DNA from: Candidatus Firestoneibacteriota bacterium | Lineage (GTDB): Bacteria > Oederibacteriota > D2-FULL-39-29 > CAIOVX01 | DNA length: 43,295 nucleotides | Reading direction: 5' to 3' | NCBI GenBank assembly: GCA_903861835.1 | Contig: CAIOVX010000036.1 | Location: 1-43,295, forward strand | In this document: in pieces, positions 22,218 through 37,092 of the stretch | Layout: each line of letters starts with the position of its first letter | Numbering within the stretch: position 1 is the stretch's first letter | The notes under the pieces: model-generated | What the model was told of the DNA's origin: nothing | Databases searched by the model: none | Seen by the model: the letters and a program-made list of their open reading frames with translations, nothing else | Made by a program: the position numbers and the translations under genes

Positions 22218-22276
22218 AGACGCCTCCTCACAACTTCGTCAATAGCCATTTGTTTTCGTTGTAAACCTTACAAACC

Positions 22277-22352
22277 TTATTCTGCTATGCCGGACGGAGT
22301 CCGGCATGAACAATATCCTTCCTTGCAGAACAAGACGCACGAAGTGCGGCTT
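22277..22352. repeat. Family D two-hairpin element, copy 1 (D1)
   Basis: Hairpin 1: ATGCCGGAC (22287-22295), GGA, GTCCGGCAT (22299-22307), a perfect 9-base stem. Hairpin 2: AAGACGCAC (22332-22340), GAA, GTGCGGCTT (22344-22352), with one A-G mismatch. A 24-base linker contains ATATCCTTCC. It ends 11 bases from the aldo/keto reductase stop and is preceded by the end of a family A arm (AAACCTTACAAACC). Copies 2 and 3 are at 29713-29790 and 36869-36944. Confidence 0.87.
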
Positions 22353-22363
22353 TTAAACGTTTC

Positions 22364-23437
22364 CTAATTAAATATTTGATGCGCCTTCTTCAACTGCTCC
22401 ATTGGCTTCAGGTGTTGCGGACAGCGCTCGTTGCACTTGCCGCATTCCGTACAAAGATCAGCTTTCTTTGGCATTTTGGAGTATTTCTCCTTGCAAGTAT
22501 CTAGCGTGCCGTAAATTTTCATTACGGTGTGCAAGTCCATTATTTCCCAAATATTGAGTCCAGCCGGGCACTCCTTGCAGTACTGGCACCACGTGCAGCA
22601 GCCGTCCTTTGAGACATTTCTGAACTTCTCCGCTTCTTTTGAAAGAAGTTCCACGTCATTCGTATTTTTTATATCATCATACATGTCCCCCGCGAGGACA
22701 ACTTCTTCGGCGTGCTCCGCGGTGTCAATACCGACGATAGCGGTTGATATTTCAGGATTACCGACCAGCCATCTTAATGCCCCGACGGCGTTTGACTTCG
22801 CCTTTCCTCTCTGCAGAAAATTGAACTTCTCTCCCTTATCCCCGAGCATACCGCCGTTTAGCGGACCCATAACAACAATCCCCATATTTTTCTCGTGGGC
22901 AAGCTTTATCTCTTCAGCGTATTCCTGCTTAAAAAGGTTGTGATAAAGCGTGATGCTCTCAAAGAGCCCGGAGGCTATCATATTCCTCACCGCGGCGTTT
23001 GGAGCGTGCGTTGTTATGCCTATGTGTTTAACTATTCCTTCTTTCATGGCCTGTTTCGCGCCTTCCAGCAGCCCGCCGGGGGCAATGATTTTCTCGAATT
23101 CTTCCTGTGAGTTTACATACCACATCTGATAAAAGTCCAGGTAATCGGTCTGCAGGCGCTTCAACTGCTCCTCTATCTTTTTCCTGAAGTCGTCCGCAGA
23201 ACAGATCGTCGTTTTTGTTGAAAGAAATACATCTTTTCTTCTTTTCCCGAGGGATAAACCGATCTTCCTCTCCGAGTCGCCGTAACCCGGCGCCGTCTCA
23301 AAGAAATTAATGCCGAGATCTATACATCTGTTGACCGCTTTATAGGCAACCTCATCAGAAACATTTGGAATTCGCATGCCGCCAAACGAGATAACTGAAA
23401 CTTTCAATCCGGACTTTCCCAACAGCCTGTATTCCAC
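22364..23437 (-). CDS. Aldo/keto reductase with C-terminal 4Fe-4S domain
   Basis: The 357-residue protein has an aldo/keto reductase barrel (about 1-280) starting MEYRLLGKSGLKVSVISFGG, then a bacterial ferredoxin-like tail. Cysteines in CTWCQYCKEC and CTECGKCNERCPQ could hold two 4Fe-4S clusters. The usual DTA-x2-YG catalytic aspartate reads ETAPGYG here, a Glu for Asp change that may be normal in this Fe-S subfamily. It probably uses NAD(P)H or ferredoxin-linked electrons; substrate unknown. The start is GTG, overlapping the anti-sigma gene stop by one base (TAGTG), with AGGAG upstream. It is the last gene of the Tpx operon. Confidence 0.9.
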   Translation of the reverse strand: MEYRLLGKSGLKVSVISFGGMRIPNVSDEVAYKAVNRCIDLGINFFETAPGYGDSERKIGLSLGKRRKDVFLSTKTTICSADDFRKKIEEQLKRLQTDYLDFYQMWYVNSQEEFEKIIAPGGLLEGAKQAMKEGIVKHIGITTHAPNAAVRNMIASGLFESITLYHNLFKQEYAEEIKLAHEKNMGIVVMGPLNGGMLGDKGEKFNFLQRGKAKSNAVGALRWLVGNPEISTAIVGIDTAEHAEEVVLAGDMYDDIKNTNDVELLSKEAEKFRNVSKDGCCTWCQYCKECPAGLNIWEIMDLHTVMKIYGTLDTCKEKYSKMPKKADLCTECGKCNERCPQHLKPMEQLKKAHQIFN

Positions 23438-24780
23438 TAATAACTCCTTTTTTGCTGAAAATAATTCCTTGCAAGAACTTTATACGCGCCGGGAAACTCT
23501 CTTTTCGCTTCCCACGAAAGCGCCTGCCTCGCGCTTTCAATATCTCCGAGTTCAGCGAAGGAGAGACTTTTTTCAAAATCGCCGTAGATTCTGTGGTCCA
23601 GGTCAAGCAATCTGAAACTTCCGTAAAGATCTATCGCATTCTTGTAATCACCCTTAGCCTTAAAGCACCAGGCCAGGTTAACCTTCGAATGGCGTTTATT
23701 CTTCCCGTAGAACCTTATAATTACCTTAGTGTAATCCTCAGCGGCCCTATCAAGATCTAGATGCAGCATCCTGTCGCTGCCCAATATATAGAAGGTTCCC
23801 GCGTTCTCCTTGCCCCGTCTTATCCTTGCAGCCTCAGTTTCCACGAGTGAGGCATATTTTCTTCTTTCTCCGGAGTACTTTGCCATCTCTCCTGCCAAAA
23901 GCGCTTCTAAGCTTCCCGGATATTTTTTCTTGGTCAGCTCATAGTATCCGTCGGCCCCGGAGTAATCGCCTGTTATATCGGAAACAAACCCAAGCCTAAA
24001 CGCAGCGGAGGCGGCCTCTTCGGGGCCCGAGGGCGAAAGCAGAGCCGCCTTGAAACCTTCGGACGCCTTATCCCATTCTTGACTTTCCATATCCACGGAA
24101 GCCTGAAGAAACACCTTTCCGGGGTTTACTTCCGGAAGCTTTTCTGATTTACGTCTGAATATACCTTCGCAATAAATGAAGGCCCAGTCCAGCGCGTCAA
24201 AAACGAAGAAGCGCTTTCTTGCGGCGGAAGCTGATTCATTCAGCAGTAACTTCAGGTCCTCCACCCTCTGTTGCGCGGGAGCTGTTGCCGGAAGGTTAAT
24301 AGCCATATCAAGGGTCGCAAGGGTGCAAAGGTTCGGGTTCTCCCGTCCGAGCTCCCCAATCAAACACTGGCCAAGATAAAGCTTTAGGTCTTTCTCGCCC
24401 ACTTGAGCAGAGATTTGCGTTGAGCTGAGCCGGTTGAAAACAGCCGCACTTTCGTTAAAGATGGCGTACCTGTATAATCCCAGCAGCGCCAGCACACAGG
24501 CCGCGGCATAAAAATACTTCAGAGAGGGCTTAAGTATATCGTGGATAAGATCCCTGACTTCCAGCCTGTCTTCGCACGCGATAATAAGTTCTTTGTCGAA
24601 AACATCGCCAAAAGAGGAGCTCACATTCCAGGTAATAAATTCAGCTTCGGTCTTAAGTAAACCCAGGTAATAGGCGTGGCATTTGGGGCAGTATTTTATG
24701 TGCCCCCTCACCCTGTCAGCTTCCTGTTCCGACAGATTTCCGGTGGCATACTCAAGTATTTGGTCTTCAAAGCAGGGCAC
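23437..24780 (-). CDS. Anti-sigma-like zinc-finger protein with membrane helix and TPR repeats
   Basis: The 447-residue protein begins with a zf-HC2-type zinc finger (Cys3, His27, Cys31, Cys34), the fold of many anti-sigma factors. One membrane helix follows (about 90-107, YAAACVLALLGLYRYAIF), then a long tetratricopeptide-like section (about 230-447: EWDKASEGFKAAL, RAAEDYTKVII, DYKNAIDLYGSF). The layout fits an anti-sigma factor that holds the sigma factor in the cytoplasm and senses through an outer TPR domain. The start is GTG, right after the sigma gene TGA. It overlaps the aldo/keto reductase start. Confidence 0.82.
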   Translation of the reverse strand: MPCFEDQILEYATGNLSEQEADRVRGHIKYCPKCHAYYLGLLKTEAEFITWNVSSSFGDVFDKELIIACEDRLEVRDLIHDILKPSLKYFYAAACVLALLGLYRYAIFNESAAVFNRLSSTQISAQVGEKDLKLYLGQCLIGELGRENPNLCTLATLDMAINLPATAPAQQRVEDLKLLLNESASAARKRFFVFDALDWAFIYCEGIFRRKSEKLPEVNPGKVFLQASVDMESQEWDKASEGFKAALLSPSGPEEAASAAFRLGFVSDITGDYSGADGYYELTKKKYPGSLEALLAGEMAKYSGERRKYASLVETEAARIRRGKENAGTFYILGSDRMLHLDLDRAAEDYTKVIIRFYGKNKRHSKVNLAWCFKAKGDYKNAIDLYGSFRLLDLDHRIYGDFEKSLSFAELGDIESARQALSWEAKREFPGAYKVLARNYFQQKRSY

Positions 24781-25380
24781 TCAGTTACCGCCGCCGGCTT
24801 TTGCCGCGGAAGACTTCCTTGCCTTTCTTTTTCGCGGAGCCGTCTTTCCTGTTTTTCCGGACGAGGAGCTTCTGCTGCTTTGAAGCTCAAGACCCAGGAG
24901 ATCATAAGCAACTTTCATCTGCCATTTTACCCAGCTGGGTTTTTTCCCTACTACATCAGCGATATTGTTATAACTCAGGCTGTGATATTTTTGCATGATT
25001 ACCATAGCCCTATGCTCCGGGTCAAGCCTGTCAAATGCCCGAACTACATATTCTTCCGGAAGCCTTGCCGCAAGATTCCGGATAGCTTTACTACGCGGAA
25101 AGCGGTCAAGACAGACATGATAAAATATCCGGAAAAGCCAGGTTAAAACGCTGCTTCCAATGCGGTAGCTGTCCCGTTTTGCCGCCGCCCTCAACAGGCA
25201 TTCTTTCACGGCTGAAGAGGCCGCAGCGTCATCGCAAAGCATTCGTTGGGCAAAAGCCGCCGCGTGCTTCCTGTACCTTTCATAGAGGAGTTCGAACGCA
25301 AACGGATTCCTGTCTTGAATGTGCAGCAGGAGTGCTGTGTCCGGGCTTTGCTTATTTAGTTCAGGAAGTTTTTTTTCCAT
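24781..25380 (-). CDS. ECF-type RNA polymerase sigma factor
   Basis: The 199-residue protein resembles an ECF sigma factor. Region 2 is near the N-terminus (PFAFELLYERYRKHAAAFA, then YRIGSSVLTWLFRI). Region 4 follows, LDPEHRAMVIMQKYHSLSYNNIADVVGKKPSWVKWQM, ending in the recognition helix. Both regions are diverged from textbook ECFs. A basic, Ser-rich tail follows (KTAPRKRKARKSS). Its ATG at 25380 lies 20 bases inside the end of queF, with no clear ribosome-binding site, so it depends on translation of queF. The anti-sigma-like gene directly follows. Target promoters are unknown. Confidence 0.85.
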   Translation of the reverse strand: MEKKLPELNKQSPDTALLLHIQDRNPFAFELLYERYRKHAAAFAQRMLCDDAAASSAVKECLLRAAAKRDSYRIGSSVLTWLFRIFYHVCLDRFPRSKAIRNLAARLPEEYVVRAFDRLDPEHRAMVIMQKYHSLSYNNIADVVGKKPSWVKWQMKVAYDLLGLELQSSRSSSSGKTGKTAPRKRKARKSSAAKAGGGN

Positions 25381-25753
25381 ATTTCGCAAAAATATCAGAC
25401 CTGATGCCGCCGCGGGGACTGAACTCGCCCTTTATCTCGGCGGACACCGGCTTGACTGCCTTCACAAAATCACGGAGTATCCGGTTTACCGCGTTCTCGT
25501 AGAAGATTCCAATGTTGCGGTAGGCCAGGATATATTCCTTCAGCGATTTTAGTTCCGCGCACCATTTCCCGGGAACATACTTTATAGTCAGCACGCCAAA
25601 ATCCGGCAGCCCGGTCTTGGGGCAGATTGCGGTATATTCCGGAAGCGTTATGGTAATCTCGTAACCCTTAAACTGATTCTCAAAGGATTCGAGTTCCGGA
25701 AGTTTCGCGGAAAGCCCTGCTTTCGCGTGTTCTTCGGTATATCTTCTTTTCAT
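25361..25753 (-). CDS. queF: NADPH-dependent 7-cyano-7-deazaguanine reductase (short QueF)
   Basis: The 130-residue enzyme reduces preQ0 to preQ1 in queuosine synthesis. It carries the nucleophilic Cys44 in AICPKTGLPDFG and Asp51 close by, then the substrate-binding ELKSLKEYILAYRNIGIFYENAVNRI section. Its length is that of the single-domain YkvM type. Its ATG overlaps the tpx stop by one base (TAATG) and its end overlaps the sigma factor gene. Other queuosine genes are not in the window. This is an unusual partner for a thiol peroxidase and a sigma factor. Confidence 0.95.
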   Translation of the reverse strand: MKRRYTEEHAKAGLSAKLPELESFENQFKGYEITITLPEYTAICPKTGLPDFGVLTIKYVPGKWCAELKSLKEYILAYRNIGIFYENAVNRILRDFVKAVKPVSAEIKGEFSPRGGIRSDIFAKYGKKTS

Positions 25754-26271
25754 TATTTTAATATCTCCTTCAGAGCCGCAAGCGCCTTCGTGTAGTCAGG
25801 ATGGGTCGAAACCTCTTTTACATACTCCACATATCTTACGGTGTCAGACGCGTCAACAATAAAGATGGAGCGGGTGAGGAGCCGGAGTTCCTTGATGAGC
25901 GCCCCATAGGCCGCTCCAAACGAACCGTGCATATGATCTGAGACAGTCTTGACTTTGCTGATAGTATGCGCTCCGCAGTATCTCTTCTGCGCGAAAGGCA
26001 GGTCCATACTGACGGTATAGAGCACGAAATCACCTGCCATTTTGTTCGCCTCGGCTTCAAAGCGCTGAGTCTGCAAGTCGCAGACGGGAGTGTCAAGAGA
26101 AGGAACTACGGAAAGCAGCCTCACCTTTCCTTTGCTGGAAGCAAGCGTTACCGCGCCAAAATCATTGTCAACAACCGTAAAATCAGGGGCTTTTTGCCCC
26201 GCCTTTACTTCCTCCCCGATAAGAGTAAGCGGACCGCCGTGCATAGTCACAACACCTTTTCTTTCTGTCAT
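25753..26271 (-). CDS. tpx: Thiol peroxidase
   Basis: The 172-residue atypical 2-Cys peroxiredoxin has the Tpx signature VPSLDTPVCDLQT with peroxidatic Cys64 and resolving Cys99 in LPFAQKRYCGA. It reduces hydrogen peroxide and alkyl peroxides with thioredoxin. It lacks a signal peptide. The ATG at 26271 follows GAGGAGAAT. It is the first gene of a five-gene operon (tpx, queF, sigma, anti-sigma/TPR, aldo/keto reductase) in which every junction overlaps or abuts. Its promoter has an extended -10. Confidence 0.96.
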   Translation of the reverse strand: MTERKGVVTMHGGPLTLIGEEVKAGQKAPDFTVVDNDFGAVTLASSKGKVRLLSVVPSLDTPVCDLQTQRFEAEANKMAGDFVLYTVSMDLPFAQKRYCGAHTISKVKTVSDHMHGSFGAAYGALIKELRLLTRSIFIVDASDTVRYVEYVKEVSTHPDYTKALAALKEILK

Positions 26272-26309
26272 ATTCTCCTCCTATAAGAGATAAGCTTTTT
26301 TGATTTTGC

Positions 26310-26358
26310 AGATTGTACGACCAATCTTGATTACCCATATAAGCGTATTATTATATCA
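26310..26358 (-). promoter_or_regulatory. tpx operon promoter and leader inverted repeat
   Basis: On the minus strand TGATATAAT (26358-26350) is a perfect extended -10, with a predicted start near 26343 and a 71-base leader. In the leader an inverted repeat AGATTG (26310-26315), six bases, CAATCT (26322-26327) could bind a regulator or fold in RNA. A further short palindrome AGCAG-A-CTGCT (26377-26387) lies at about -39. Confidence 0.55.
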
Positions 26359-26385
26359 TATTGGTTTTTATTATTCAGCAGACTG

Positions 26386-28101
26386 CTATCGCGCAAGAAA
26401 CTTGAGCAGGTCTTTCAGCGGAAGACAGTTTATCACATCCTTCTTCTCGAGCCAGCCCCTGCGGGCGGTGATTACTCCGTATTTCATATTTTCAAGCTCG
26501 CCTATGGCGTGGGAATCAGTATTAATGCTGACAGGCGCGCCTTTTTCCTTTGCCGCCCTGCAGTTGATGTCGGTAAGATCTAACCGGTAAGGGGAGGCTG
26601 AAAGCTCCAGAGCCACTCCTTCGCCGGAAGCCGCCGCTATGACTTCTCCCATATCTATTTCATACGGTTCCCGCTCGTTCAATAACCGGCCCGTGGGGTG
26701 CCCAAATATTTTTATCCTTCCGCTTTTGAAAGCGCGGATTACTCTTTTGGTCATCTCGTCCTTCTTCATTCGAAACGAGGTATGCACCGAACCAATCGCG
26801 TAATCCAGCCGGGAGAGCAAACCATCATTATAGTCCAGTGTTCCGTCGGGCTTTATGTCAACCTCACTGCCGCAGAGCACCCTCAGGCCCTTCAGTATTT
26901 TGTTCAACGTTTCTATTTCTTTTATCCTCTTAAGCAGCAATTCCGGAGATAACCCTCTCGCCACTTTCAGCGAAGCGGAATGATCAGTTATCCCAATATA
27001 CTCATAACCCTTCTTCTTCGCCGCAGAGACAAGCTCGCCGATACTGCCGGTCCCGTCTGATGCAGCGGTGTGCATATGAAGGTCTCCCCTGATATCCTCA
27101 AGTTCAATAAGGCGGGGGAGCTTGCCGTTAAACGCAGCTTCTATCTCGCCCCTTCCCTCGCGCAGTTCCGGCTCTATATATGGAAGGCCAAGCGCGCGGT
27201 ATACTTCTGCTTCGGTCTTCGCGGCTACGCGCTTCTTCCCTTTAAAAACCCCGTACTCGGAAAGCTTCAGGCCTTTTTTTATTGCCAGTTCGCGAAGCAA
27301 AATATTATGCTCTTTTGAACCGGTAAAATAATTCAATGCGGCGCCGAATTCTTCCGTAGAAATCACCCGCAGGTCTGCCTGTATGCCGTCTTTCGTAAGG
27401 ATAGAAGCTTTAGTGCCTCCCTTCGCAAGCACTCTGGCCACACTTTCAAAACCCGTAAAGGCTTCGATTGCTTTGCCGTGTTCTTTCGCGGCAACCAGAA
27501 GGTCTATGTCTCCAGCCGTTTCTTTCCCGCGCCTTAAGCTGCCGGCAAAAACGGCTTCTTTCGCCCCGGCCGCCTTTAGTTCTTTAATGAGGCCTTCGGC
27601 AACAGGCAAAGCGTCGCCGAGGCGCATCCGCTCCTTTCCTTTCTTCCTGTATTCAATCCCCTTGAGAATGTTCTCCTCAGTTTTTCCCCCCATCCCCTTC
27701 AGGCCTTTCAACTTACCGGCTTTCACTGCTTTTTCAAGCCCTTTCATATCCTTAATACCAAGTTCTTCAAAGAAGAATTTTGCTTTCTTCGGACCGACGC
27801 CCTGGACGGAGAGGAGTTCCAGCAGCCCTTCCGGCAGTTCCTTCTTGAGCTCCTCAAAATACCTTATTTTGCCTGTGTTAAACAACTCTTCCAGTTTTTT
27901 CGCAAGCCCCTCTCCGATGCCCGGGATCTGCGTGAGTCCTTTGATACCGTTTTCTTTATGGAGTTTTTCCAGGTCTTCCGGATAGGTAGAAAGTATCTCC
28001 GCCGCTTTCAGGTAGGCCCGTATCTTGAATATCATCTCTCCCTTTATCTCAAGGAGCTCGCCAATTTCCAGCATTATTTTACCGATATCTGCGTTCTTCA
28101 T
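26386..28101 (-). CDS. polX: DNA polymerase/3'-5' exonuclease PolX
   Basis: The 571-residue protein has the standard PolX order. Helix-hairpin-helix DNA-binding units (about 1-145, with LTQIPGIGEGLAKKL and LSVQGVGPKKAKFF) are followed by a family X nucleotidyltransferase core with GSLRRGKETAGDIDLL (about 187-202) carrying the two catalytic aspartates. A C-terminal PHP domain (about 335-571) has DLHMHTAASDG, GITDHS and HPTGR metal motifs. It fills gaps in base excision repair. The length is typical. Its start overlaps the UroD-like stop by four bases (ATGA). Confidence 0.95.
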   Translation of the reverse strand: MKNADIGKIMLEIGELLEIKGEMIFKIRAYLKAAEILSTYPEDLEKLHKENGIKGLTQIPGIGEGLAKKLEELFNTGKIRYFEELKKELPEGLLELLSVQGVGPKKAKFFFEELGIKDMKGLEKAVKAGKLKGLKGMGGKTEENILKGIEYRKKGKERMRLGDALPVAEGLIKELKAAGAKEAVFAGSLRRGKETAGDIDLLVAAKEHGKAIEAFTGFESVARVLAKGGTKASILTKDGIQADLRVISTEEFGAALNYFTGSKEHNILLRELAIKKGLKLSEYGVFKGKKRVAAKTEAEVYRALGLPYIEPELREGRGEIEAAFNGKLPRLIELEDIRGDLHMHTAASDGTGSIGELVSAAKKKGYEYIGITDHSASLKVARGLSPELLLKRIKEIETLNKILKGLRVLCGSEVDIKPDGTLDYNDGLLSRLDYAIGSVHTSFRMKKDEMTKRVIRAFKSGRIKIFGHPTGRLLNEREPYEIDMGEVIAAASGEGVALELSASPYRLDLTDINCRAAKEKGAPVSINTDSHAIGELENMKYGVITARRGWLEKKDVINCLPLKDLLKFLAR

Positions 28102-29216
28102 TTTTTCTGAGTTTCATTCACCCTGTCAAGATTCCAATCTTTCATTCCGAATAACTCTTTCTTGCGGTTGAGGTAATACACATAGTTTTCCCACGATACA
28201 TCCGGCGGGCACCTGTGATCCACATGCGGGATGAAGCCCCCGTCTTCTACAAGGGGCAGGAGCCGCAGAAGTTCCGCGTCAATCTCCTTCTTTCCTTTAG
28301 AAAGTTTTGTTTTGTCCACTCCGCCCATAAGGCGCATTTCTTTGCCGAACCTCTTCCTAAGTTCCAGCGGGTCTGTTCCATTGACCTCTATGGGAAACAT
28401 TATGTTCACGCCGCAGTCAAGCCAACAGCCGGCCAGGTCATAGATGCGCCCGTCACAGTCCAGGAAGGTGAGGTCTGTCCCGTATTTTCGCAATAAGCCC
28501 GTGATCTTCTTGTAATGTTTCGCGGCGTATTTATTGAACATCTCCGGGGAAATTATCGGGCCGTGGTTGAACGCTATGTCTTCCCACATTGAAGCGGCGT
28601 CGAAGGCGTGCTTTTTAAGCACCGGCTCAAGAGTGTCAACTATCAAATCGGCCCAGGTTTCTATTATTTCTTCCATAAGCACAGGATCATCATAGAACAT
28701 CATCGCGAAATTCTCAAATCCTATCAGGTCCCGGGGAACGCCGAGAAGGCTCCCTGCGCTTATAATAACCGGATTTCCTGTCGCTTTTGCTTTGGCTACC
28801 CTTGCGTCAATGTCGGCCGGTATTCTTTTGGCGCGGTCTTTTACCAGCCGCTGCTTGTATTCCTTCCAGGACTCGCGATCTTTCAAACCGTAGTCAATAT
28901 AATTAGGTATTGAAGAAGCCCCGCCGGTGAAGACCTTCTTTGTCACATTCTCGTGGTCAACAACAATCTTGTAGTCTTTATTCTCTTCAATAACTTTTTC
29001 GGCAAAAGGGTACAAAAAACCAAGCTTAAGAGATATCCCCTCCATTCCGTCAAAACCTATGAACGGATCAAGCTTTCCCTCGTTGTTATATTTAGCGTCC
29101 AGTCCTTCAGTGTGCCACCTGGGGATAGTTTCATCCCAGTAGCCGTACTCCCTGTTGAAGACACGGTCATACGGCTTGTAGTGCAAAACTGCGTTCCATC
29201 TTTCCCGTGAATTCAT
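28098..29216 (-). CDS. UroD/MtaA-family protein (paralogue 1)
   Basis: The 372-residue protein belongs to the uroporphyrinogen decarboxylase superfamily, which includes corrinoid methyltransferases MtaA, MtbA and CmuA. It opens MNSRERWNAVLHYKPYDRV, and has SLLGVPRDLIGFENFAMMFYD, the zinc-ligand region LTFLDCDGRIYDL and HVDHRCPPDVSWENY at the end. The zinc motif HSCG of the second copy (31075-32181) reads DCDG here, so the metal site may differ. No heme genes or corrinoid proteins are near, so a role in methyl transfer is possible but not shown. It is co-translated with polX. Confidence 0.84.
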   Translation of the reverse strand: MNSRERWNAVLHYKPYDRVFNREYGYWDETIPRWHTEGLDAKYNNEGKLDPFIGFDGMEGISLKLGFLYPFAEKVIEENKDYKIVVDHENVTKKVFTGGASSIPNYIDYGLKDRESWKEYKQRLVKDRAKRIPADIDARVAKAKATGNPVIISAGSLLGVPRDLIGFENFAMMFYDDPVLMEEIIETWADLIVDTLEPVLKKHAFDAASMWEDIAFNHGPIISPEMFNKYAAKHYKKITGLLRKYGTDLTFLDCDGRIYDLAGCWLDCGVNIMFPIEVNGTDPLELRKRFGKEMRLMGGVDKTKLSKGKKEIDAELLRLLPLVEDGGFIPHVDHRCPPDVSWENYVYYLNRKKELFGMKDWNLDRVNETQKK

Positions 29217-29252
29217 GCTGCCTCCAATGTATAAGGACAGTTTACAACAGTA

Positions 29253-29567: not shown

Positions 29568-29581
29568 ATTAACCTCTGATT

Positions 29582-29712
29582 AAAAGTTTGTAAGGTTTAT
29601 AAGGTTCATAAGGTTTATAAAGTAAAAGCAAAGCAAAACCAAACCACAATAATTATATCTTAAGATTACGTATGGTCTGGTTCTATGTTTTACCTTACAA
29701 ACTTTGCAAACG
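29582..29712. repeat. Family A period-9 inverted repeat (A4), joined to D2
   Basis: Left arm (29582-29626): GTTTGTAAG, GTTTATAAG, GTTCATAAG, GTTTATAAA. Right arm (29689-29712): ACCTTACAA, ACTTTGCAA. About 62 unique bases separate them, including the palindrome ATCTTAAGAT. The right arm runs straight into a two-hairpin element. Confidence 0.8.
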
Positions 29713-29790
29713 TTATTCTGCTATGCCGGACGTAGTCCGGCATGAAATATATATCCTTCCCTACAGAACAAGACGCACAAAGTGCGGCTT
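29713..29790. repeat. Family D two-hairpin element, copy 2 (D2)
   Basis: Hairpin 1: ATGCCGGAC (29723-29731), GTA, GTCCGGCAT (29735-29743). Hairpin 2: AAGACGCAC (29770-29778), AAA, GTGCGGCTT (29782-29790). Loops differ from copy 1 while stems are identical. It ends 8 bases from the MEMO-family stop. Confidence 0.87.
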
Positions 29791-29798
29791 ATAAACCA

Positions 29799-30605
29799 TT
29801 ATTTAATAATTATTCCCGCGTACCCCACCACCTGCTCAAAATCCCCGCTCTCTTCGCCGGAGTTTGAGTATTTAACTAGTTCGGCTTTTGTCGCCCCGAG
29901 TTCCTTTACTGCCGAAAGCATCGCGACCGCCGGCGCCCAGCCGCACATGCTGATATCGTTTTCGCGCACAGTTTCCGCGAGGGCGCGTCCGTCCAGCGCG
30001 AGCAATTTCCCAATAGCCAGTTCATCTTTTCTTTTAGCGGATTCCGCGCTCTCGCAATGGGTCATATCCGAACTTGCGATAATGCAGGCAGAAACCCCGG
30101 TTTTTTTGACCGCGGCAGCGGCGCTTTTGCCTATGGCTTCCAGAACTTTTATATCGCCGGTTGCCAGGCAGACAGGGACTATTTTAATATTTTTAAAATA
30201 ATATTGCAGAAATGGAAGCTGTACCTCAATAGAATGTTCATTTTGGTGCGCTAGGCCGTCTTGTTTAAGAAATTTGCACGAGGAAAGCATATCTGAGGCT
30301 GTCTTTGAATCTATTTCTAGATTCCCAAGAGGAGTCTGCCAGGCGCCCTCCGTCATTATCGACGCTTCGGTTCCAAGACCCGTATGATTGGGCCCGAAAA
30401 TGATAAAAGTGTCAACAGGGGCTATCTTTGAAAGGGTCATCGCGGCAGTCCGTCCGGAATACATATAGCCCGCATGCGGGCAGACCGCGCCCAGGACTTT
30501 CTCTGTGGAGCGTTTAAGCCCACGGACGCGCTTTTCTATATCGGCCAAAAGAGCCGCTTTGCTGCCCGGATAAAACCTGCCTGAAGCGACAGGTTTCCTA
30601 AGCAT
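29799..30605 (-). CDS. MEMO-family (AmmeMemoRadiSam system protein B) protein
   Basis: The 268-residue protein matches the MEMO1 family of class III dioxygenase-like proteins. It has VCPHAGYMYSGRTAAMTL near residue 45, FIIFGPNHTG, NEHSIEVQLPFLQYYF and IASSDMTHCE. The three histidines and acidic residues that bind metal in dioxygenases are partly present. In many anaerobes it sits with AMMECR1 and a radical-SAM gene; neither is seen here. Its start overlaps the ybaB stop by one base (TAATG), so the two are co-translated. Bacterial role unknown. Confidence 0.9.
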   Translation of the reverse strand: MLRKPVASGRFYPGSKAALLADIEKRVRGLKRSTEKVLGAVCPHAGYMYSGRTAAMTLSKIAPVDTFIIFGPNHTGLGTEASIMTEGAWQTPLGNLEIDSKTASDMLSSCKFLKQDGLAHQNEHSIEVQLPFLQYYFKNIKIVPVCLATGDIKVLEAIGKSAAAAVKKTGVSACIIASSDMTHCESAESAKRKDELAIGKLLALDGRALAETVRENDISMCGWAPAVAMLSAVKELGATKAELVKYSNSGEESGDFEQVVGYAGIIIK

Positions 30606-30913
30606 TACATCATCCCGGGGAGGTTTATTCCCATCTCTTTTGAGACCTGCTGCATCCTGGCCGCTGATTTCTGCTGGGCCTGCCCTACCGCGTTGGAGAT
30701 AGCGCGTTTAAGCATATTCTGCAATTCAACTCCCTTTTCCGGGACAAGGTAAAAAGGGTCAATTGAAAGGTCCATCACCTTCATCTCGCCGTTCATCGTG
30801 ACTTTTATTTTTCCGCCGGCCTCTTCAATGGTCACGCTAATCTGCTCCATTTCCTTCTTAATCCTTTTCTGCAGATCGTACAGCTGTTTCATTTGTTTAA
30901 GTTTGTCTAACAT
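30605..30913 (-). CDS. YbaB/EbfC nucleoid-associated protein
   Basis: The 102-residue protein has the YbaB layout: an N-terminal coiled coil (MLDKLKQMKQLYDLQKRIKKEM), a central beta sheet with GGKIKVTMNGEMKVMDLSID, and a C-terminal helix ending NLPGMM. These dimers bind DNA without strict sequence specificity and often lie next to dnaX and recR; neither is in the window. The start at 30913 is fixed by AAGGAGAGAAG. A MEMO-family gene follows with a one-base overlap. Confidence 0.93.
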   Translation of the reverse strand: MLDKLKQMKQLYDLQKRIKKEMEQISVTIEEAGGKIKVTMNGEMKVMDLSIDPFYLVPEKGVELQNMLKRAISNAVGQAQQKSAARMQQVSKEMGINLPGMM

Positions 30914-30935
30914 CTTCTCTCCTTGAAGCAATAAT

Positions 30936-31070
30936 GGTTTATAACGTTCTTAACGTTACTAACGTTTGTAACGTAATGCAAACCGCAACAAATCAGGCTA
31001 AACCATCTTTACGTTATAAACGTTATAAACGTTACGAACGTTACAAACGTTTCAAACCTTACAAACTTTT
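30936..31070. repeat. Family A period-9 inverted repeat (A5), the longest and cleanest
   Basis: Left arm (30936-30981): TTTATAACG, TTCTTAACG, TTACTAACG, TTTGTAACG. Right arm (about 31011-31070): ACGTTATAA twice, ACGTTACGA, ACGTTACAA, ACGTTTCAA, ACCTTACAA. About 30 unique bases lie between. It ends 5 bases before the stop of the second UroD-like gene (31075). Confidence 0.87.
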
Positions 31071-31074
31071 GTTT

Positions 31075-32181
31075 TTAGTATCTCCCATATTCTAACGCCG
31101 ACTCATACATCGCTATTATATTTTCCACCGGCGTGTCGTTCTGTATCTCGTGACAGGCCGCCAGTATATAGCCGCCGTCCTTTCCCAGTGTTTCTATCTT
31201 GTGCTTGACTTCCTTCTTCACATCCGAAACGGAACCGAAAGGAAGTATCTCCTGCTCGTCTATCGCCCCGTGAAAAACCACTTTGTCGCCGAAATCTTGC
31301 TTTAAGCGCTCAGGTTCCATATTCAAGGCCCGCGTCTGCACCGGATTGATTATGTCAACCCCGTCCTCTATCAGATCGCCAAGGAACGAATGGATTGACC
31401 CGCAGGAATGAAGGAAGATCTTCGCTTTGGTATATTGCCTTATGTCGGCAATATAGGATTTGTTCACCGGCTTGATAAATTCTTTATAAAAATCGAGAGA
31501 AAAGAAGGTGCCGTTTTGAGTGCCGTAATCATCTCCAAGCTGTACCATATCAAGGTACTTGCCCACGGCCCCATAGAAAACTTCCGAGGAGTCCTTCTGA
31601 AGTTTATGAATAATACCGAAAAGCTTAACCGTAAACTCCGGTTCAATGGCCATTCCCATAAGTATTCTTTCAAACCCGCAGAGCCAGCAGGCCCTTTCAA
31701 ACACCCCCGCAGATGCGGCTTGTCCGACCACGACAAAAGGAGTGTCGTTGTGAAGCCTTTTCGCTTGCTCAACTATTTCATCACGCACGCCCATAGCGTG
31801 AAAGTCCGGCCACTGATATTTGTCAAGGTCTTCGCGGGTCGCGTCTTTAAGCGGGAAGAAAACATTCTGCTGGTCCTCTCCCGAGAATTTGCTGCCCACG
31901 CCCCAGTTGTCAAAACTCGTTCCGTCTGAAAGGGGAGCCCTGGGTTTTGCCGGCTTCTTTGACCCCGGAGTTACCCTTCTGAAATCAATCTGAAATCTTT
32001 CAAGCACGCGCGAATCAAAATCCTTGTACCAGGCAAGCGGTTCGCCTTTTAGCTTTAAGGCTTCTCTTAAACGCGCATAAACGGCAGGCTTGATGCCGGA
32101 GAGCCAGCCGCCGAGGTCCAGCGGCACCCTGTCGGCTTCCTGATGCGAGCAAATCTTATAAAAGCGTTCTCTGGAATTCAA
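31075..32181 (-). CDS. UroD/MtaA-family protein (paralogue 2)
   Basis: The 368-residue protein opens NSRERFYKICSHQEADRVP, like the protein at 28098-29216, and contains the family's zinc motif AKIFLHSCGSIHSFLGDLI, then the INPVQTRALNMEPERLKQDFGDKVVFHGAID region and HEIQNDTPVENI. HSCG plus the later Cys/His fits methyl-corrinoid transferases such as MtaA rather than heme UroD. The start is TTG at 32181 with GGAGGCGCA before it. It is flanked on both sides by intergenic repeats and has no co-transcribed partner. Confidence 0.86.
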   Translation of the reverse strand: MNSRERFYKICSHQEADRVPLDLGGWLSGIKPAVYARLREALKLKGEPLAWYKDFDSRVLERFQIDFRRVTPGSKKPAKPRAPLSDGTSFDNWGVGSKFSGEDQQNVFFPLKDATREDLDKYQWPDFHAMGVRDEIVEQAKRLHNDTPFVVVGQAASAGVFERACWLCGFERILMGMAIEPEFTVKLFGIIHKLQKDSSEVFYGAVGKYLDMVQLGDDYGTQNGTFFSLDFYKEFIKPVNKSYIADIRQYTKAKIFLHSCGSIHSFLGDLIEDGVDIINPVQTRALNMEPERLKQDFGDKVVFHGAIDEQEILPFGSVSDVKKEVKHKIETLGKDGGYILAACHEIQNDTPVENIIAMYESALEYGRY

Positions 32182-32198
32182 TGCGCCTCCTGTGCAAA

Positions 32199-32302
32199 AC
32201 GTGTACCGTGCACCGTTTACAGTTTACCGTTGTCCGTGTACGGTTTACCGTTAAGAACAAACTTCATCACACGGTAAACGGTTAGCGGTAAACGGTACAC
32301 GT
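32199..32302. repeat. Family C period-7 inverted repeat
   Basis: Left arm (32199-32253) is a run of 7-base units ACCGTGC, ACCGTTT, ACAGTTT, ACCGTTG, TCCGTGT, ACGGTTT, ACCGTTA. Right arm (32269-32302) has ACGGTAA, ACGGTTA, GCGGTAA, ACGGTAC. The outermost 11 bases are a perfect inverted pair: ACGTGTACCGT (32199-32209) and ACGGTACACGT (32292-32302). It ends 4 bases from the ThyA-like stop. Confidence 0.85.
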
Positions 32303-32306
32303 CATT

Positions 32307-33131
32307 TTACAGCCCGTTCTTTTTCTCTTCCGCCAGTTTTTCCTTCCCTATCTCAAAAAACGGTTCCGCAAACTCCGTGTTCCAGACCCGTTCCTCAAAT
32401 TTCCTGTTCTTCACGGTCTCAAGGAATTTCTTAAAATCATTGTAGTAAGAACCATATATATGGAAACTATTGGCGTAATGAACATAGCGCCCGACGCGCA
32501 CCTTCTTGCCGATTTTTTTACCTATCTCTTCTGCTATCATCTTCTGCAGTTCGGTCAGAGCAAAAACATTCATGAAAGCCGCTTTATAGGCGTCATTAGA
32601 GCGCCAGATGGTATTGACATTGAGCACAGGCGTGCCGTCAGAGTCAGGCAGGAGGCGGGCCCAGAGCATCTGCAGGCAGGGCGGATCATAGGAAGGCGGA
32701 TCCTTGTAAACATTCCAGGTAATGGCCTGCGCCCTTCTTGAATGCCCGCTCACGATAAGCTTGTTTATAATGTAAGCTATCTGGTCAATGCTGGTCCCTT
32801 CGGTTTTGTAATTGAAGAACCTTTCGTGATAGGTATAGGTCCACTTGCCTTCCGCGGGGTTTATCCAATGGTCGTGCACGCCGTTCACAACTTCCTGACG
32901 GTAGACCTCGAGGTCTTCAAGCCCGCCCGGGAAAGCGCGATGTATCCGCGGTTCCTTGAATGGGTCATTGACCACCATCATCATAGTGCAGTCTTTGCTG
33001 GGAGGATCCCCCGGCTTGTCATACTCGGTCTTTATATCACAACCCTTTTCCCAGGTCTCTATAACCGCTTTTTCCCAGGCTTCGGGAAGCGTGTCCCCTT
33101 CCACTCTAAGTACCGGAATATTTCCTTCCAT
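32307..33131 (-). CDS. Thymidylate synthase-family (ThyA-like) protein
   Basis: The 274-residue protein has the ThyA core in the C-terminal half: paired arginines (132-133), the nucleophile Cys152 in DPPCLQMLW, RSND (177-180), Asn188 and HYANSFHIYG (218-227). Residues 1-125 differ from classic ThyA. Cys, Arg, Asn and the HIY motif indicate a pyrimidine C5 transferase: thymidylate synthase or a dUMP/dCMP hydroxymethylase-like enzyme. The conserved LGLPFN section reads YKAAFMN. No folA is nearby. GGAGGAATCA precedes the ATG, and the gene has its own strong promoter. Confidence 0.8.
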   Translation of the reverse strand: MEGNIPVLRVEGDTLPEAWEKAVIETWEKGCDIKTEYDKPGDPPSKDCTMMMVVNDPFKEPRIHRAFPGGLEDLEVYRQEVVNGVHDHWINPAEGKWTYTYHERFFNYKTEGTSIDQIAYIINKLIVSGHSRRAQAITWNVYKDPPSYDPPCLQMLWARLLPDSDGTPVLNVNTIWRSNDAYKAAFMNVFALTELQKMIAEEIGKKIGKKVRVGRYVHYANSFHIYGSYYNDFKKFLETVKNRKFEERVWNTEFAEPFFEIGKEKLAEEKKNGL

Positions 33132-33159
33132 TGATTCCTCCGCGGTTCCGCTAAAACAG

Positions 33160-33193
33160 GTATAATTATACTTAAAGCGCCGCTTTCTATCAA
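33160..33193 (-). promoter_or_regulatory. ThyA-like gene promoter with palindromic -10
   Basis: TTGATA (33193-33188), 17 bases and TATAAT (33170-33165) on the minus strand form a near-consensus sigma-70 promoter; start near 33158. The -10 lies within a 12-base palindrome GTATAATTATAC (33160-33171). A second inverted repeat AAAGC-GCC-GCTTT (33174-33186) sits in the spacer. Confidence 0.72.
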
Positions 33194-33208
33194 GAAGAAG
33201 TCAGGCCG

Positions 33209-34021
33209 CTATACTTTATAGGTCCAAACCTTTTTAATGAGTTCCTTTGCCGTCTTTGCCTTTACAAGCGGTTCCGTTATCCACTCCTTGGGAAGATCAT
33301 CAGGGTGGCTTGCTCTCAATTCTTTCTCCGGCTTTGCAAAGATGTCATTTTGATAGGTGAAAGGAGCTTTGAGCTTGTACGGCTTTACCTTTCCTATATT
33401 CTTAACGGCAGTTTCCACTCCCTCGCGTATTCTTTTCCTTGCCTCATCCTTTGAAAGCGATATCGCGGCGTAACGGGAAAGCCCTTCCTTGACGGGAACG
33501 GCAACAATACCGGGAATTATTTTTTTGGCTTCGTTGCAGGCGCCCGTATCTCCGGAGATCATTATTGCCGGAACATCAAAAGCGCCCGCGACAAAAGCGA
33601 AAATCGCGAACTCGCCTGCCGGTTTTCCGTTTAACCTGAACTCGCGGCATTCAAGGCACATCGTATGGTATAACACTCCGCCTCTTGTCCTTGCCATGGA
33701 GTGCGCGCCTATCATTATCATCGCGTCAAAGGAAGAATCTAACCCCGGCATAATTCTGGGCCTTCTTGTTCCGTGGACTATTCTTGCCCGGCTGTCTAAG
33801 GTTTCAGGGTCAATGGTATAACCCCTGCCGTGCGCGTCATCAATCAGCACTTCATCCGCCCCGCCTAAAAAACAGCCTTCCACGGCGGCGTTCACTTCCC
33901 CCGTCAAAAGCCTCGCGCCCCTCTGCCTTTTTATAATATTCGGCGCGCTTTCATCCGCCCTGTCTTCAAAATCAACTACCCCGGCAACGCCTTCGTAGTC
34001 CGTCATTATGTATATTTTCAT
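33209..34021 (-). CDS. M55-family D-aminopeptidase (DppA-like), copy 1
   Basis: The 270-residue protein starts MKIYIMTDYEGVAGVVDF, placing the zinc ligands Asp8 and Glu10 exactly where DppA has them. LIDDAHG (His64), IGAHSMA, LYHTMC and NGKPAGEFAIF supply the other ligands and the proposed nucleophile. M55 enzymes are decameric zinc aminopeptidases that release D-amino acids such as D-alanine from short peptides. The start overlaps the transporter stop (ATGA). A paralogue lies at 34953-35777, with a DMT transporter between them. Confidence 0.92.
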   Translation of the reverse strand: MKIYIMTDYEGVAGVVDFEDRADESAPNIIKRQRGARLLTGEVNAAVEGCFLGGADEVLIDDAHGRGYTIDPETLDSRARIVHGTRRPRIMPGLDSSFDAMIMIGAHSMARTRGGVLYHTMCLECREFRLNGKPAGEFAIFAFVAGAFDVPAIMISGDTGACNEAKKIIPGIVAVPVKEGLSRYAAISLSKDEARKRIREGVETAVKNIGKVKPYKLKAPFTYQNDIFAKPEKELRASHPDDLPKEWITEPLVKAKTAKELIKKVWTYKV

Positions 34022-34884
34022 TTATCCCCTCCGTTAAATTTCCATGGTATGTCGGAAATAATCATTCCCGCAAAGATCAGCCCTCCGCCAAGGACGCGGA
34101 CCGGGATTGCTTTTTCTCCGCCGATCGTCCAGGCAAGCGCTGCCGCAAATACCGGTTCCAGAGTGTAAATCAGGGACGCCCTGACTGCATCAACATGTTT
34201 CTGCGAAAATATCTGCACCAGAAAAGAAAATATTGTCGGGAGGGCAATCAGAAAGCCGAGTGAAATAACAGCCTTCCCCCAGACAATGGAGAATGAATAC
34301 CCCATTACCAGCGCCGTTATCAGACTTAGCAAACCCGCGAAGAAGAACTGCTGGAAACAGAGCACAAGCGGGTCCAGCCCTTTCTTTCCGAACTTATCTA
34401 TGAAGAGAATATGGAACGCGCTTGCGGCGGCGGCAAGCATCGTAAGAAAATCGCCAAGATTTATGGCCTTAAGCCCTTCCGTCAGGAACCACAGGCCCGC
34501 CACGTCTATGCCAATGGCAAGCAGCGAGCTTTTCTTAAGCTTCCCGCCGAAAAGCAGTATGGAAAAAATAGGCACAAAGACTACAAACATCGCCGTGATG
34601 AACCCGGAATTGGAAGCCGTGGTGTAGACCATTCCGACGCCTTGAAGCACGGTAACCAGCCAGACCGTGAAAGCAAGTATAAACCCTTCCAGGAGATTCC
34701 TCATAATGTTCTTTTTGAGAACCACAATTAGGATTGCAACAAAAACAGAGGCAATAAGGAATCTGTAGGCAACCATAACAAACGGATTAACCGTTGAAAC
34801 AAGGTCTTTTACTATGAAAAACGACGAACCCCAGACCAGGGTAGCCGACAAAAGCATTATGTCGTGGAATCTCTTGCTTCTCAT
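34018..34884 (-). CDS. EamA/DMT-family transporter
   Basis: The 288-residue protein has about ten membrane helices and the paired EamA repeats: LSATLVWGSSFFIVKDLV at the N-terminus and a second start near LTMLAAAASAFHILFIDKFG. Conserved SLIYTLEPVFAAALAWTIGGE lies near the end. DMT carriers move amino acids, nucleotides or drugs, often outward; the substrate is unknown. The ATG at 34884 follows AAGGGA by five bases. Placed between two M55 peptidases and co-translated with the first, it may export or import products of D-amino-acid peptide breakdown. Confidence 0.9.
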   Translation of the reverse strand: MRSKRFHDIMLLSATLVWGSSFFIVKDLVSTVNPFVMVAYRFLIASVFVAILIVVLKKNIMRNLLEGFILAFTVWLVTVLQGVGMVYTTASNSGFITAMFVVFVPIFSILLFGGKLKKSSLLAIGIDVAGLWFLTEGLKAINLGDFLTMLAAAASAFHILFIDKFGKKGLDPLVLCFQQFFFAGLLSLITALVMGYSFSIVWGKAVISLGFLIALPTIFSFLVQIFSQKHVDAVRASLIYTLEPVFAAALAWTIGGEKAIPVRVLGGGLIFAGMIISDIPWKFNGGDK

Positions 34885-34915
34885 CAAAATCCCTTAAGCC
34901 TTAAGCGTTTCGCCC

Positions 34916-34950
34916 TAATCTGCGTAATCTCTTTTTGAATCCGTGAAATC
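34916..34950. repeat. Family B repeat, single arm (B3)
   Basis: TAATCTGCGTAATCT, a T-rich centre, then GAATCCGTGAAATC. It matches the units at 5438-5474 and 6080-6115 and ends 2 bases from the stop of M55 copy 2 (34953). No left arm is present. Confidence 0.74.
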
Positions 34951-34952
34951 TT

Positions 34953-35777
34953 TTAAACTTTCTTGCCGTAGATTTTCTTCAGCAGTTCCGCCGCGGACTT
35001 GGCCTTTATCAGCGGGCCTGTGGTCCATTCCTTAGGGAGATTATCAGGATGGCTTGCATACTGCTCGCCGTTTTTCAAAGTCTCCGGCCACAGGTCTTCC
35101 TGATAAGTGAAAGGCGGCTTTAGTTTGTAAGGTTTAACTTTGGAAATGTCCGCAAGAGAACGCGAGACGCCTTCCCGAATCCTTTCCCTCGCAGCTTCCG
35201 GGGAAAGCGAAATCGCAACGGTCCTGGCAAGTCCTTCTTTCACGGCGACAACAGTTATCCCCGGAATAAAGCGGGAGGCTTCTTTGCAGGCCGCAGTATC
35301 TCCCGATACAAATACCATCGGGACGCCGAAAGTCCCTGCCTTTAGGGCAAACAGCCCTATTTCCCCGGCCGGTTTCCCGTTGATTCTTATCTGCCGGACA
35401 TCCTTTGAACTCATTGTATGAGAGAGCACGCCCCTGTGGGTCCCTATCATTGAATGAGCTCCGACAAACACCACAGCGTCAAAGGAGGCGTCAAGGCCTG
35501 CCATCATCCCCGGACGTTTCGTTCCGTGCAATATCTTTGCCCTGCCGTCCAGGTTCTCGTAATCTATGATATAGCCGCCGCCGTGTGAATCGTCTATCAG
35601 GACCTCCGAAGCTCCGGCGGAAAAACAACCTTCGACCGCAGCGTTTACCTCTCCGGTCAAAAGACGGCCCTGCTCCGCGCGCCGCTGATTATAGGAGGTT
35701 TCATTATTTTCACGATTGCGGTCAAAATGAACCACTCCTGCCGCGCCTTCAAGGTCTGTCATTATATATATTTTCAT
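34953..35777 (-). CDS. M55-family D-aminopeptidase (DppA-like), copy 2
   Basis: The 274-residue protein is a clear paralogue of copy 1 and keeps the zinc set: Asp8 and Glu10 in MTDLEGAAGVV, LIDDSHGGG, VGAHSMIG, LSHTM and NGKPAGEIGLFA. Most differences are near the N-terminus (an insertion rich in Arg, Asn and Glu) and near the end (a short insert at DLWPETLKNGEQY). The ATG at 35777 is preferred over a GTG six bases earlier because it matches copy 1. It follows the lipoprotein gene TGA by two bases, so they form an operon. It is probably a D-amino-acid peptide hydrolase. Confidence 0.91.
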   Translation of the reverse strand: MKIYIMTDLEGAAGVVHFDRNRENNETSYNQRRAEQGRLLTGEVNAAVEGCFSAGASEVLIDDSHGGGYIIDYENLDGRAKILHGTKRPGMMAGLDASFDAVVFVGAHSMIGTHRGVLSHTMSSKDVRQIRINGKPAGEIGLFALKAGTFGVPMVFVSGDTAACKEASRFIPGITVVAVKEGLARTVAISLSPEAARERIREGVSRSLADISKVKPYKLKPPFTYQEDLWPETLKNGEQYASHPDNLPKEWTTGPLIKAKSAAELLKKIYGKKV

Positions 35778-35779
35778 TT

Positions 35780-36820
35780 TCACCTCATATCTATCAGCTG
35801 CGGGGTTAAAATGTAATCCTTGCCCGACTGCCTTTTTTTATAACAGAAGATATAATTCCCATCCCACGAATACTCGGGATAGAGTTCCCAGTCATCCGGG
35901 GTCCCCGTGACATTTACCGTACTTCCCGTTTTAAGGTCCAGCATATAAATGTCGCTGTTCTCCTGGTAGTAGACTTTTTCTTCTTTACCTTTTTCGTTCT
36001 TTTCCATATGCGGCTTTAACTCGCCGAAATTGTAGGCAACCTTGCTGCCGTCGGGAGAGAGCGAAAGCCAGGTCGAGGCCGCAGCTCCTGAGGGATTTGG
36101 AAGCGTGGTAAAACAGGCGAGACTGGAATAGGAACCGCTTTCCGCTTCAGCCGTTCCGAACTCAAGGGCTTTCACCACCAGCAGTTTCTTTGAATCCGGA
36201 AACCAGAGCAGGCCCTGCGCCCCGTCCGTGAAACTCTTGAGCTTTTCTCCTTCCACGGAATATATCTTTACCTTTCCTTCGGGCTGTTTAACATAGGCGA
36301 TCTTTTTGCCGTCCGGAGACCACTGAAGAAAGAGCGCGGGATCCTTTGAAAGCAAACGGTTTCCTGTCCCTTCCAGGGTGACGACGAATACGCCTTTTGG
36401 CGATGCATAGGCAAGAAACCTGCTGTCCGGCGAAGCCGCCGCGAAAAGCGGATTGCCCTCGGTCTTTATTTTCCTTTTCTTCATCCCGTCAATTTCCAGG
36501 CATACCAGCGAGCCGGAATCGGAGTAGACTATTCTCCTGCCGTCGGGCACAATGCAAAGTTTTTGAAAGAGGTCATTGGTGCTTTTGGAATTGGAGAGTT
36601 CCGCGAGTTTCTTTGTTTTTCCGGAGGAAACGTCAAGGATGAAGATATTGCCGGTCTTTTCGGAGATGCCAGCGAGCAGGTATTTCCCCGGTATCCATTT
36701 CATCGCGTCCGCGGAAGCGCTTTTTGGCAGCGGGATGAGGGTTCTCTTTTGAACTTCGACTTTAGAATTGCACGACGCCAACATTACAACCAAAACCAAC
36801 AGTCCAAGGTGTTTTTTCAT
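35780..36820 (-). CDS. TolB-like beta-propeller lipoprotein
   Basis: The 346-residue product has a lipoprotein signal with lipobox LASC (Cys about 17), then six or more WD40/PD40-type repeats: AASPDSRFLAYAS, LQWSPDGKKIAYV, LWFPDSKKLLVV, SLSPDGSKVAYN and PEYSWDGNYIFCY. This fits a TolB-like periplasmic propeller anchored by lipid. In TolB such propellers bridge the inner system and Pal; here no tol genes are near. The ATG at 36820 has GAGG eight bases upstream. It is co-transcribed with M55 copy 2, suggesting envelope peptide turnover. Confidence 0.87.
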   Translation of the reverse strand: MKKHLGLLVLVVMLASCNSKVEVQKRTLIPLPKSASADAMKWIPGKYLLAGISEKTGNIFILDVSSGKTKKLAELSNSKSTNDLFQKLCIVPDGRRIVYSDSGSLVCLEIDGMKKRKIKTEGNPLFAAASPDSRFLAYASPKGVFVVTLEGTGNRLLSKDPALFLQWSPDGKKIAYVKQPEGKVKIYSVEGEKLKSFTDGAQGLLWFPDSKKLLVVKALEFGTAEAESGSYSSLACFTTLPNPSGAAASTWLSLSPDGSKVAYNFGELKPHMEKNEKGKEEKVYYQENSDIYMLDLKTGSTVNVTGTPDDWELYPEYSWDGNYIFCYKKRQSGKDYILTPQLIDMR

Positions 36821-36868
36821 AGTCATCGCCTCTTTTAATAGCAGGGTTTTTCATTTTAAAAAGCTTGC

Positions 36869-36944
36869 AAGCCGCACTTCGTGCGTCTTGTTCTATAGTG
36901 GAGGATATCATTCATTCCAGGCTGCGCCTGGCATAGCAGAATAA
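36869..36944. repeat. Family D two-hairpin element, copy 3 (D3), inverted
   Basis: Hairpin 2: AAGCCGCAC (36869-36877), TTC, GTGCGTCTT (36881-36889). Hairpin 1: ATTCCAGGC (36914-36922), TGC, GCCTGGCAT (36926-36934), with one mismatch. Compared with D1 and D2 the hairpin 1 stem has two base-pair swaps (a G:C to A:T and an A:T to G:C), each compensated in the other arm. It lies 49 bases upstream of the lipoprotein gene. Confidence 0.87.
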
Positions 36945-37092
36945 GGTTTATAAGGTAAAAACAATAACCAGCCTTGCATAATTCCGGAATTATTTGCCTG
37001 GCTCAGATATTTTGTCTTGCCTTTACTTTACAAACTTTTTCCCGCGTTCTACGTTATAAACGTTAAGAACGTTACAAACGTTACGAACCTCT
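36945..37092. repeat. Family A period-9 repeat cluster (A7)
   Basis: Next to D3 a short left arm AAGGTTTATAAGGTAAA (about 36943-36960) is followed by about 60 unique bases. A right arm (37021-37092) then mixes the AAGG and ACGTT types (CTTTACTTTACAAACTTT, then ACGTTATAA, ACGTTAAGA, ACGTTACAA, ACGTTACGA). It reaches the obg stop at 37093. The 272-base gap 36821-37092 holds only this and D3. Confidence 0.78.

Follow-up and report, generated by a model that had tools for sequence, protein, structure and literature searches.

Enzymes of the IS200/IS605 family bind subterminal hairpins, and a guide just 5' of the hairpin foot picks the cut (PMC6006769, PMC8266576), interacting with the target tetranucleotide on the left and with the last tetranucleotide on the right (PMC6006769). 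When the foot of a Marinomonas REP was changed, the cut changed as well, and irregularities of loops or stems are known recognition features (PMC8266576). Here, we describe a 74-base intergenic repeat whose host order is Candidatus Firestonebacteria. The repeat shares with the ends of IS608 and ISDra2, and with their gene-less derivatives, hairpins close to each end of the same strand, insertion 3' of a target that is short, fixed, and not duplicated, guide bases at a hairpin foot that match the terminal bases, a mismatch within a stem, and the absence of terminal inverted repeats (PMC6006769, PMC8266576). Unlike those elements, it has a helix, P1, that links the left end to the base of the right hairpin; its three-base right guide covaries with the tail among subfamilies, with no left guide recognized; it has neither tnpA nor an autonomous copy; and its orientation bias is opposite to the lagging-template rule.

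The repeat also resembles REP, BIME, and REPIN elements with their RAYT transposases (PMC3733652, PMC8266576), in that it is intergenic, palindromic, present in dozens of copies, arranged in mosaic arrays, and marked by a stem mismatch, in genomes that encode RAYT-like genes. Unlike them, it has no GTRG foot, no inverted pair of palindromes, and no RAYT linkage, and it occupies a defined site, NTTA. The likeness to REP/BIME or REPIN elements suggested in the initial annotation holds in spirit, as a kinship with single-strand REP-like DNA, and fails as membership, since the GTAG/GTGG foot is absent, two unlike hairpins stand in direct order, and no copy lies near any of 25 Y1/RAYT-type genes. 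In Porphyromonas gingivalis, too, one genome holds both a short tandem repeat and a miniature mobile element; there, the minisatellite is reported to sit within a MITE that has inverted repeats (PMC4596501), whereas here a hairpin element without terminal inverted repeats lies inside arrays of 9-mers.

Copies, three-helix fold, and covariation

The window, meaning the whole stretch of 43,295 nucleotides that we analyzed, is contig C36 of a 2.18-Mb genome that is 98% complete (G000). Its copies D1, D2, and D3 belong to a large family, with the following features.

22277-22353, plus strand: D1 copy; element proper 22280..22353 (TTCTG...CTTT), directly after CTTA (22276-22279)
22280..22284, plus strand: D1 5' arm of helix P1, TTCTG, pairing with CAGAA at 22326-22330 (DNA fold and covariation across subfamilies)
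22287..22307, plus strand: D1 hairpin P2, 9 bp, loop GGA at 22296-22298
22313..22322, plus strand: D1 unpaired conserved linker ATATCCTTCC (alignments A1 and A5)
22332..22352, plus strand: D1 hairpin P3, with AAG foot, A.G mismatch, 5 bp, and loop GAA, pairing to the CTT beside the 3' end
22267..22279, plus strand: 9-mer array CTTACAAACCTTA that receives D1
29713-29791, plus strand: D2 copy; element proper 29716..29791 (76 nt, two extra bases in the linker), after GTTA
29723..29743, plus strand: D2 hairpin P2, loop GTA (DNA fold)
29770..29790, plus strand: D2 hairpin P3, loop AAA, A.G mismatch (DNA fold)
29681..29715, plus strand: degenerate 9-mer array that receives D2; inverted partner at 29586-29621
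36868-36944, minus strand: D3 copy; element proper 36868..36941, P1 decayed, ending in CTTG
36914..36934, minus strand: D3 hairpin P2 (ATGCCAGGC GCA GCCTGGAAT), two compensated pairs and one mismatch
36869..36889, minus strand: D3 hairpin P3 (DNA fold)
36942..36954, minus strand: 9-mer array that receives D3; inverted partner array at 37053-37088

Inspection of all three copies bore out the initial annotation in treating them as one element with two hairpins, three-base loops, and an ATATCC-bearing linker between the hairpins. The annotation missed helix P1 (TTCTG/CAGAA), which encloses hairpin P2 and brings the two ends of the element together, and which is lost in D3. Of the two 9-base stems that it described, P2 does have 9 bp; the second stem has 8 pairs and an A.G mismatch, which occupies pair four of P3 in 89 of 96 copies. 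The loops, said to vary freely, are instead GNA triloops in 186 of 197 cases (P2, 96 of 100 copies; P3, 90 of 97). In D3, the swap from CCGGAC to CCAGGC in the first stem is indeed matched in the partner arm, accompanied by an uncompensated change that went unmentioned, GGCAT to GGAAT (G-C to G.A). Folded as single-stranded DNA, D1, D2, and D3 gave z values of -5.5, -6.2, and -3.6, respectively, against shuffles.

Collecting the genomic copies, as had been proposed, yielded numbers far beyond chance: blastn over the whole G000 genome returned 53 matches, and a covariance model built on 43 copies (R1) found 73 in G000 and 38, 36, and 37 in its congeners G001, G002, and G003, respectively. A second model (R2) recovered 60, 35, 34, 35, 25, 51, 1, 10, and 41 copies in G000 to G008, so that the family is present in all nine genomes of the order, including all five of the sister family; the same search found none in 70 other genomes, 36 within the phylum and 34 beyond it. 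No match was found among the phages, plasmids, and viral contigs searched, and a phage or plasmid origin was rejected on that basis. When named genomes were scanned by pattern, the hairpin together with its context turned up solely in lake MAGs of Candidatus Firestonebacteria, the contigs of which match those of the congeners G001 to G003. Matches to a single hairpin, as in Streptomyces, Dakarella, Cohnella, and others, come without the remainder of the element and were dismissed as chance palindromes. Several copies form head-to-tail tandems with a period of 74 to 76, often at contig ends, where the assembly breaks. The uncultured order thereby gains a clear intergenic repeat system.

Across 43 copies, 97.5% of cells in the P1, P2, and P3 structure are paired, with double changes at five pairs. 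The covariation score was 0.077, compared with 0.039 ± 0.004 in column shuffles, none of which reached the observed value, and sliding the partner positions within the genus lowered pairing from 97.5% to 24 to 42%. These results support the proposed selection on pairing. Counted as single cells within the 43 copies, compensated and uncompensated changes are nearly even (23 double changed versus about 24 unpaired, the latter 2.5% of 946), the unpaired cells being scattered and mostly singletons. The changes that define subfamilies, on the other hand, are compensated: 22 subfamily representatives hold 24 double-changed cells versus 1 unpaired, a count that ignores relatedness. Helix P1 is nearly invariant inside the genus, although TTTTG/CAAAA classes occur there too, and across subfamilies it changes to TTTTG/CAAAA, TCTCG/CGAGA, or TCTTG/CAAGA while keeping about 99% pairing. 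Among the representatives, 99.1% of P1 cells are paired, with double changes at three of five pairs; at the base of P3, pairing is complete (100%), and two of three pairs show double changes. Sliding the partners across subfamilies lowered pairing from 99.4% to 40 to 55%, a control partly favored by the hand-chosen and trimmed representatives, for which the tally of double changes carries more weight.

The weak matches in sister-family genera are true relatives with other stems. One type combines P1 TCTCG/CGAGA or TCTTG/CAAGA with P2 ATGTCAAC-NNNN-GTTGACAT, another combines P1 TTTTG/CAAAA with P2 CTTCATAGCC...GGCTATTGAAG, and a further stem type is TTCTGG/CCAGAA. Their P2 loops have four bases, GNNA in 21 of 34 copies and mostly not GNRA. 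Both GNA and GNNA loops form extraordinarily stable DNA mini-hairpins (PMC4686876). Stem mismatches among 1,169 cells comprise 7 G.T, 6 A.C, and 17 others; wobble pairs are thus unfavored on both strands, unlike in an RNA, although the numbers are small. Details of loops and mismatches point to DNA rather than RNA.

Insertion site and terminal bases

Copies lie within arrays of the 9-mer [G/C/T]TTA-NN-AAC, between NTTA on the left and NNAAC on the right. Among 111 copies, the left flank is GTTA, CTTA, or TTTA in nearly all and the right flank is mostly NNAAC, while the P3 foot and the right end pair as AAG-CTTA in 71, ATG-CATA in 11, and AGG-CCTA in 8. Since NTTA persists on the left as foot and tail covary, the final bases are part of the element and the TTA is not duplicated; a target duplication of TTA was rejected on the CATA and CCTA classes, which have no second TTA. 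The match between foot and tail (AAG/CTTA, ATG/CATA, and AGG/CCTA) fits the guide feature of IS200/IS605 elements, and plain stem covariation could explain it too. In the sister family, the TTTTG class follows ATA or GTA, not TTA, and some copies (e.g., at L277) follow TTA outside arrays. A DDE-type MITE with TTA duplication was also considered and rejected, as the ends TTCTGC and GCGGCTTA are not inverted repeats and the CATA and CCTA types lack a second TTA.

Presence and absence of copies differ between species. The site of D1 has an empty counterpart in G001 (L090), a G000 copy at L045 has empty counterparts in G003 (L063) and G002 (L087), and a tandem pair of G002 (L058) is missing in G001 (L064), in each case with a 9-mer array at NTTA. 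Occupied and empty sites also differ in how many 9-mers they contain, which means that the flanks change as well. With insertion sites this exact, sequencing reads by themselves suffice to test mobility. Another copy follows directly after 16 of 71 CTTA-ended copies versus 0 of 35 others, where tandem copies count as nonindependent events; the exception is a CCTA-type copy at a contig edge that is followed by another copy (L108).

Models of mobility

We are about evenly poised on whether the element is nonautonomous mobile DNA that works like IS200/IS605-family ends joined without a gene. Under such a scheme, when the locus becomes single stranded, the strand TTCTG...CTTA would fold, with P1 closing over P2 and P3 stacking beside it, so that the boundaries after TTA and CTTA would lie side by side. 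We infer that a trans-acting endonuclease of the HUH/Y1 type would recognize the hairpins capped by GNA and, in P3, the A.G mismatch, cutting on the left after NTTA, the target outside the element, and on the right after the last four bases of the element, with three guide bases (AAG, ATG, or AGG) at the 5' foot of P3 reading the right site. The strand would then be joined at another NTTA, mostly in TTA-rich 9-mer arrays, and CTTA-ended copies would offer a new target, giving rise to head-to-tail tandems. By analogy with the described elements, P3 with AAG...CTTA fits the right end, P2 the left end, and NTTA the left target, and P1 would be an addition. No bases matching TTA stand at the P2 foot; published guides include noncanonical pairs.

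Two further features of IS200/IS605 elements, a relative that carries a Y1 gene between matching ends and an active strand on the lagging-strand template, were looked for and not found, and we therefore do not file the element as an IS200/IS605 member. Separate searches with left-half and right-half profiles for an autonomous copy returned only decayed copies, other subfamilies, and contig edges, and no half-element accompanied by a gene appeared in the sequence searched. The genomes G000 to G008 carry 1, 3, 1, 3, 5, 4, 0, 3, and 5 Y1_Tnp genes, 25 in total and nearly all RAYT-like by eye. A search for a REP-associated tyrosine transposase, as had been proposed, located no copy of the repeat within about 1.5 kb of any of these 25 genes, and a descriptor scan of the Y1 loci returned chance matches only. 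The four congeners, whose MAGs are 86 to 98% complete, share no Y1 type. None of the nine genomes has a TnpB match above the cutoff, on which ground a TnpB-linked IS605 origin was rejected. The initial annotation was right that the window holds no RAYT gene; the genome nevertheless has one RAYT-like gene, with a different repeat beside it. This single RAYT-like Y1 gene of G000 (L051:1174-1863) is accompanied by GGTGTCTGTCCCC/GGGGACAGACACC repeats at L051:1155, 1905, and 1991, a separate REP-like system.

Genes and GC skew are strongly strand biased in G000. In 34 of 50 copies, the folded strand coincides with the C-rich one (p of about 0.015), and in 30 of 41 it runs counter to codirectional genes (p of about 0.005). 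IS608 and ISDra2 prefer the lagging-strand template (PMC6006769); if the G-rich strand is the leading one, the bias of the repeat is opposite to this preference. It could be explained by selection against one orientation in transcripts or by the other strand acting.

That the RAYT enzymes of these genomes spread the repeat in trans as a REP/BIME/REPIN-type element seems improbable to us. RAYT-like Y1 proteins do occur in most of the nine genomes, and G006, the only one without a Y1 gene, holds a single copy, a point that also speaks for the IS200/IS605-like scheme; a short Y1 type (191 to 200 amino acids) is found in G004, G005, and G008, which hold the TCTCG class; and the repeat is intergenic, high in copy number, and palindromic, with a stem mismatch. 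Yet in the consensus, P2 is preceded by CTGCT and P3 by AACA rather than by GTAG or GTGG, the unlike hairpins P2 and P3 keep a direct, fixed order in all copies instead of forming an inverted pair of one palindrome, and the G000 gene has its other repeat beside it. We consider it rather unlikely, though less so, that the repeat is a passive unit of the mosaic, gained and lost by replication slippage and recombination between TTA/9-mer repeats, with hairpins that only promote slippage and dispersal via gene conversion between arrays. Tandem copies inside one array are nearly identical, hairpin-deletion derivatives are known (L241 17313 and L087 1366), and in the common class every unit, whether 9-mer or 74-mer, ends in TTA. 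However, the CATA and CCTA classes have no TTA end and still stand exactly after NTTA, some sister-family copies follow TTA outside arrays (e.g., L277), and the covariation of guide and tail and the conserved A.G mismatch would be left without a role.

An element acting as RNA, transcribed between genes as, for example, a terminator, attenuator, small RNA, or self-cleaving unit, is very improbable. In favor of this reading, the stems covary and the orientation is biased relative to genes. On the strand opposite the linker (window 22280-22353 and other copies), most subfamilies also have, by eye, AAGGAAGGATAT followed a few nucleotides on by ATG, which is ribosome-binding-site-like, although the reading frame varies between copies. 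Against an RNA stand the lack of an excess of G.U or A.C, the DNA-type loops, the occurrence of copies in both orientations, and hairpins without a trailing U-run. Rfam covariance models gave no gathering match in the window (best E of 4.9, around D1), and a reverse transcriptase gene was found only in G004, with none in G000 or its congeners. We rejected the RNA hypothesis on the absence of a wobble excess, an Rfam match, and a reverse transcriptase in the genus.

If the IS200/IS605-like reading is true, then one lineage holds three natural subfamilies in which terminal bases and guide change together, a natural version of the laboratory retargeting of IS608 guides and of the Marinomonas REP, and a folded end-to-end element can spread to tens of copies without a linked transposase. 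It is possible, if tentative, that the repeat represents a new class of single-strand mobile DNA, defined by a unit of 65 to 110 nt, a P1 end-joining fold uniting both cleavage sites, a covarying tail and guide, and a TTA-delimited mosaic with 9-mers, and moved by an enzyme other than a linked Y1 transposase.

Arrays and neighboring repeat families

Arrays of the 9-bp unit GTTANNAAC, with NN mostly TA, AG, CA, TG, or CG, lie in the window at 9917-10010, 21381-21528, 29586-29716, 30937-31048, and 36942-37088. They form outward-pointing inverted pairs that flank 25 to 160 bp of unique intergenic sequence; in the 806 kb of G000 sequence that we read in stretches, neighboring arrays were oriented minus-plus 26 times and plus-minus never. 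In G005 (L260 to L275), 9-mer arrays start with a conserved 22-mer, ATATCCTTCAACGATTTTAGAC, which has ATATCCTTC in common with the linker of the element.

A second, larger family of about 110 nt is built on the same plan: its P1 is TTTCG/CGAAA or TCTTT/AAAGA, its long P2 contains an inner GC-rich hairpin, and its linker reads AATATTAACACACC or TATATCTTTACCAACC. It occurs at L231:6217-6328 (contig C91 of G000), L072:2500-2581, and L092:3333-3414, and on contig C22 of G000 near 30399-30585 and 53899-54205. The window also contains, at 32199-32302, an imperfect inverted repeat with 32-nt arms made of ACGTGTACCGT/ACGGTAAACGGT units.
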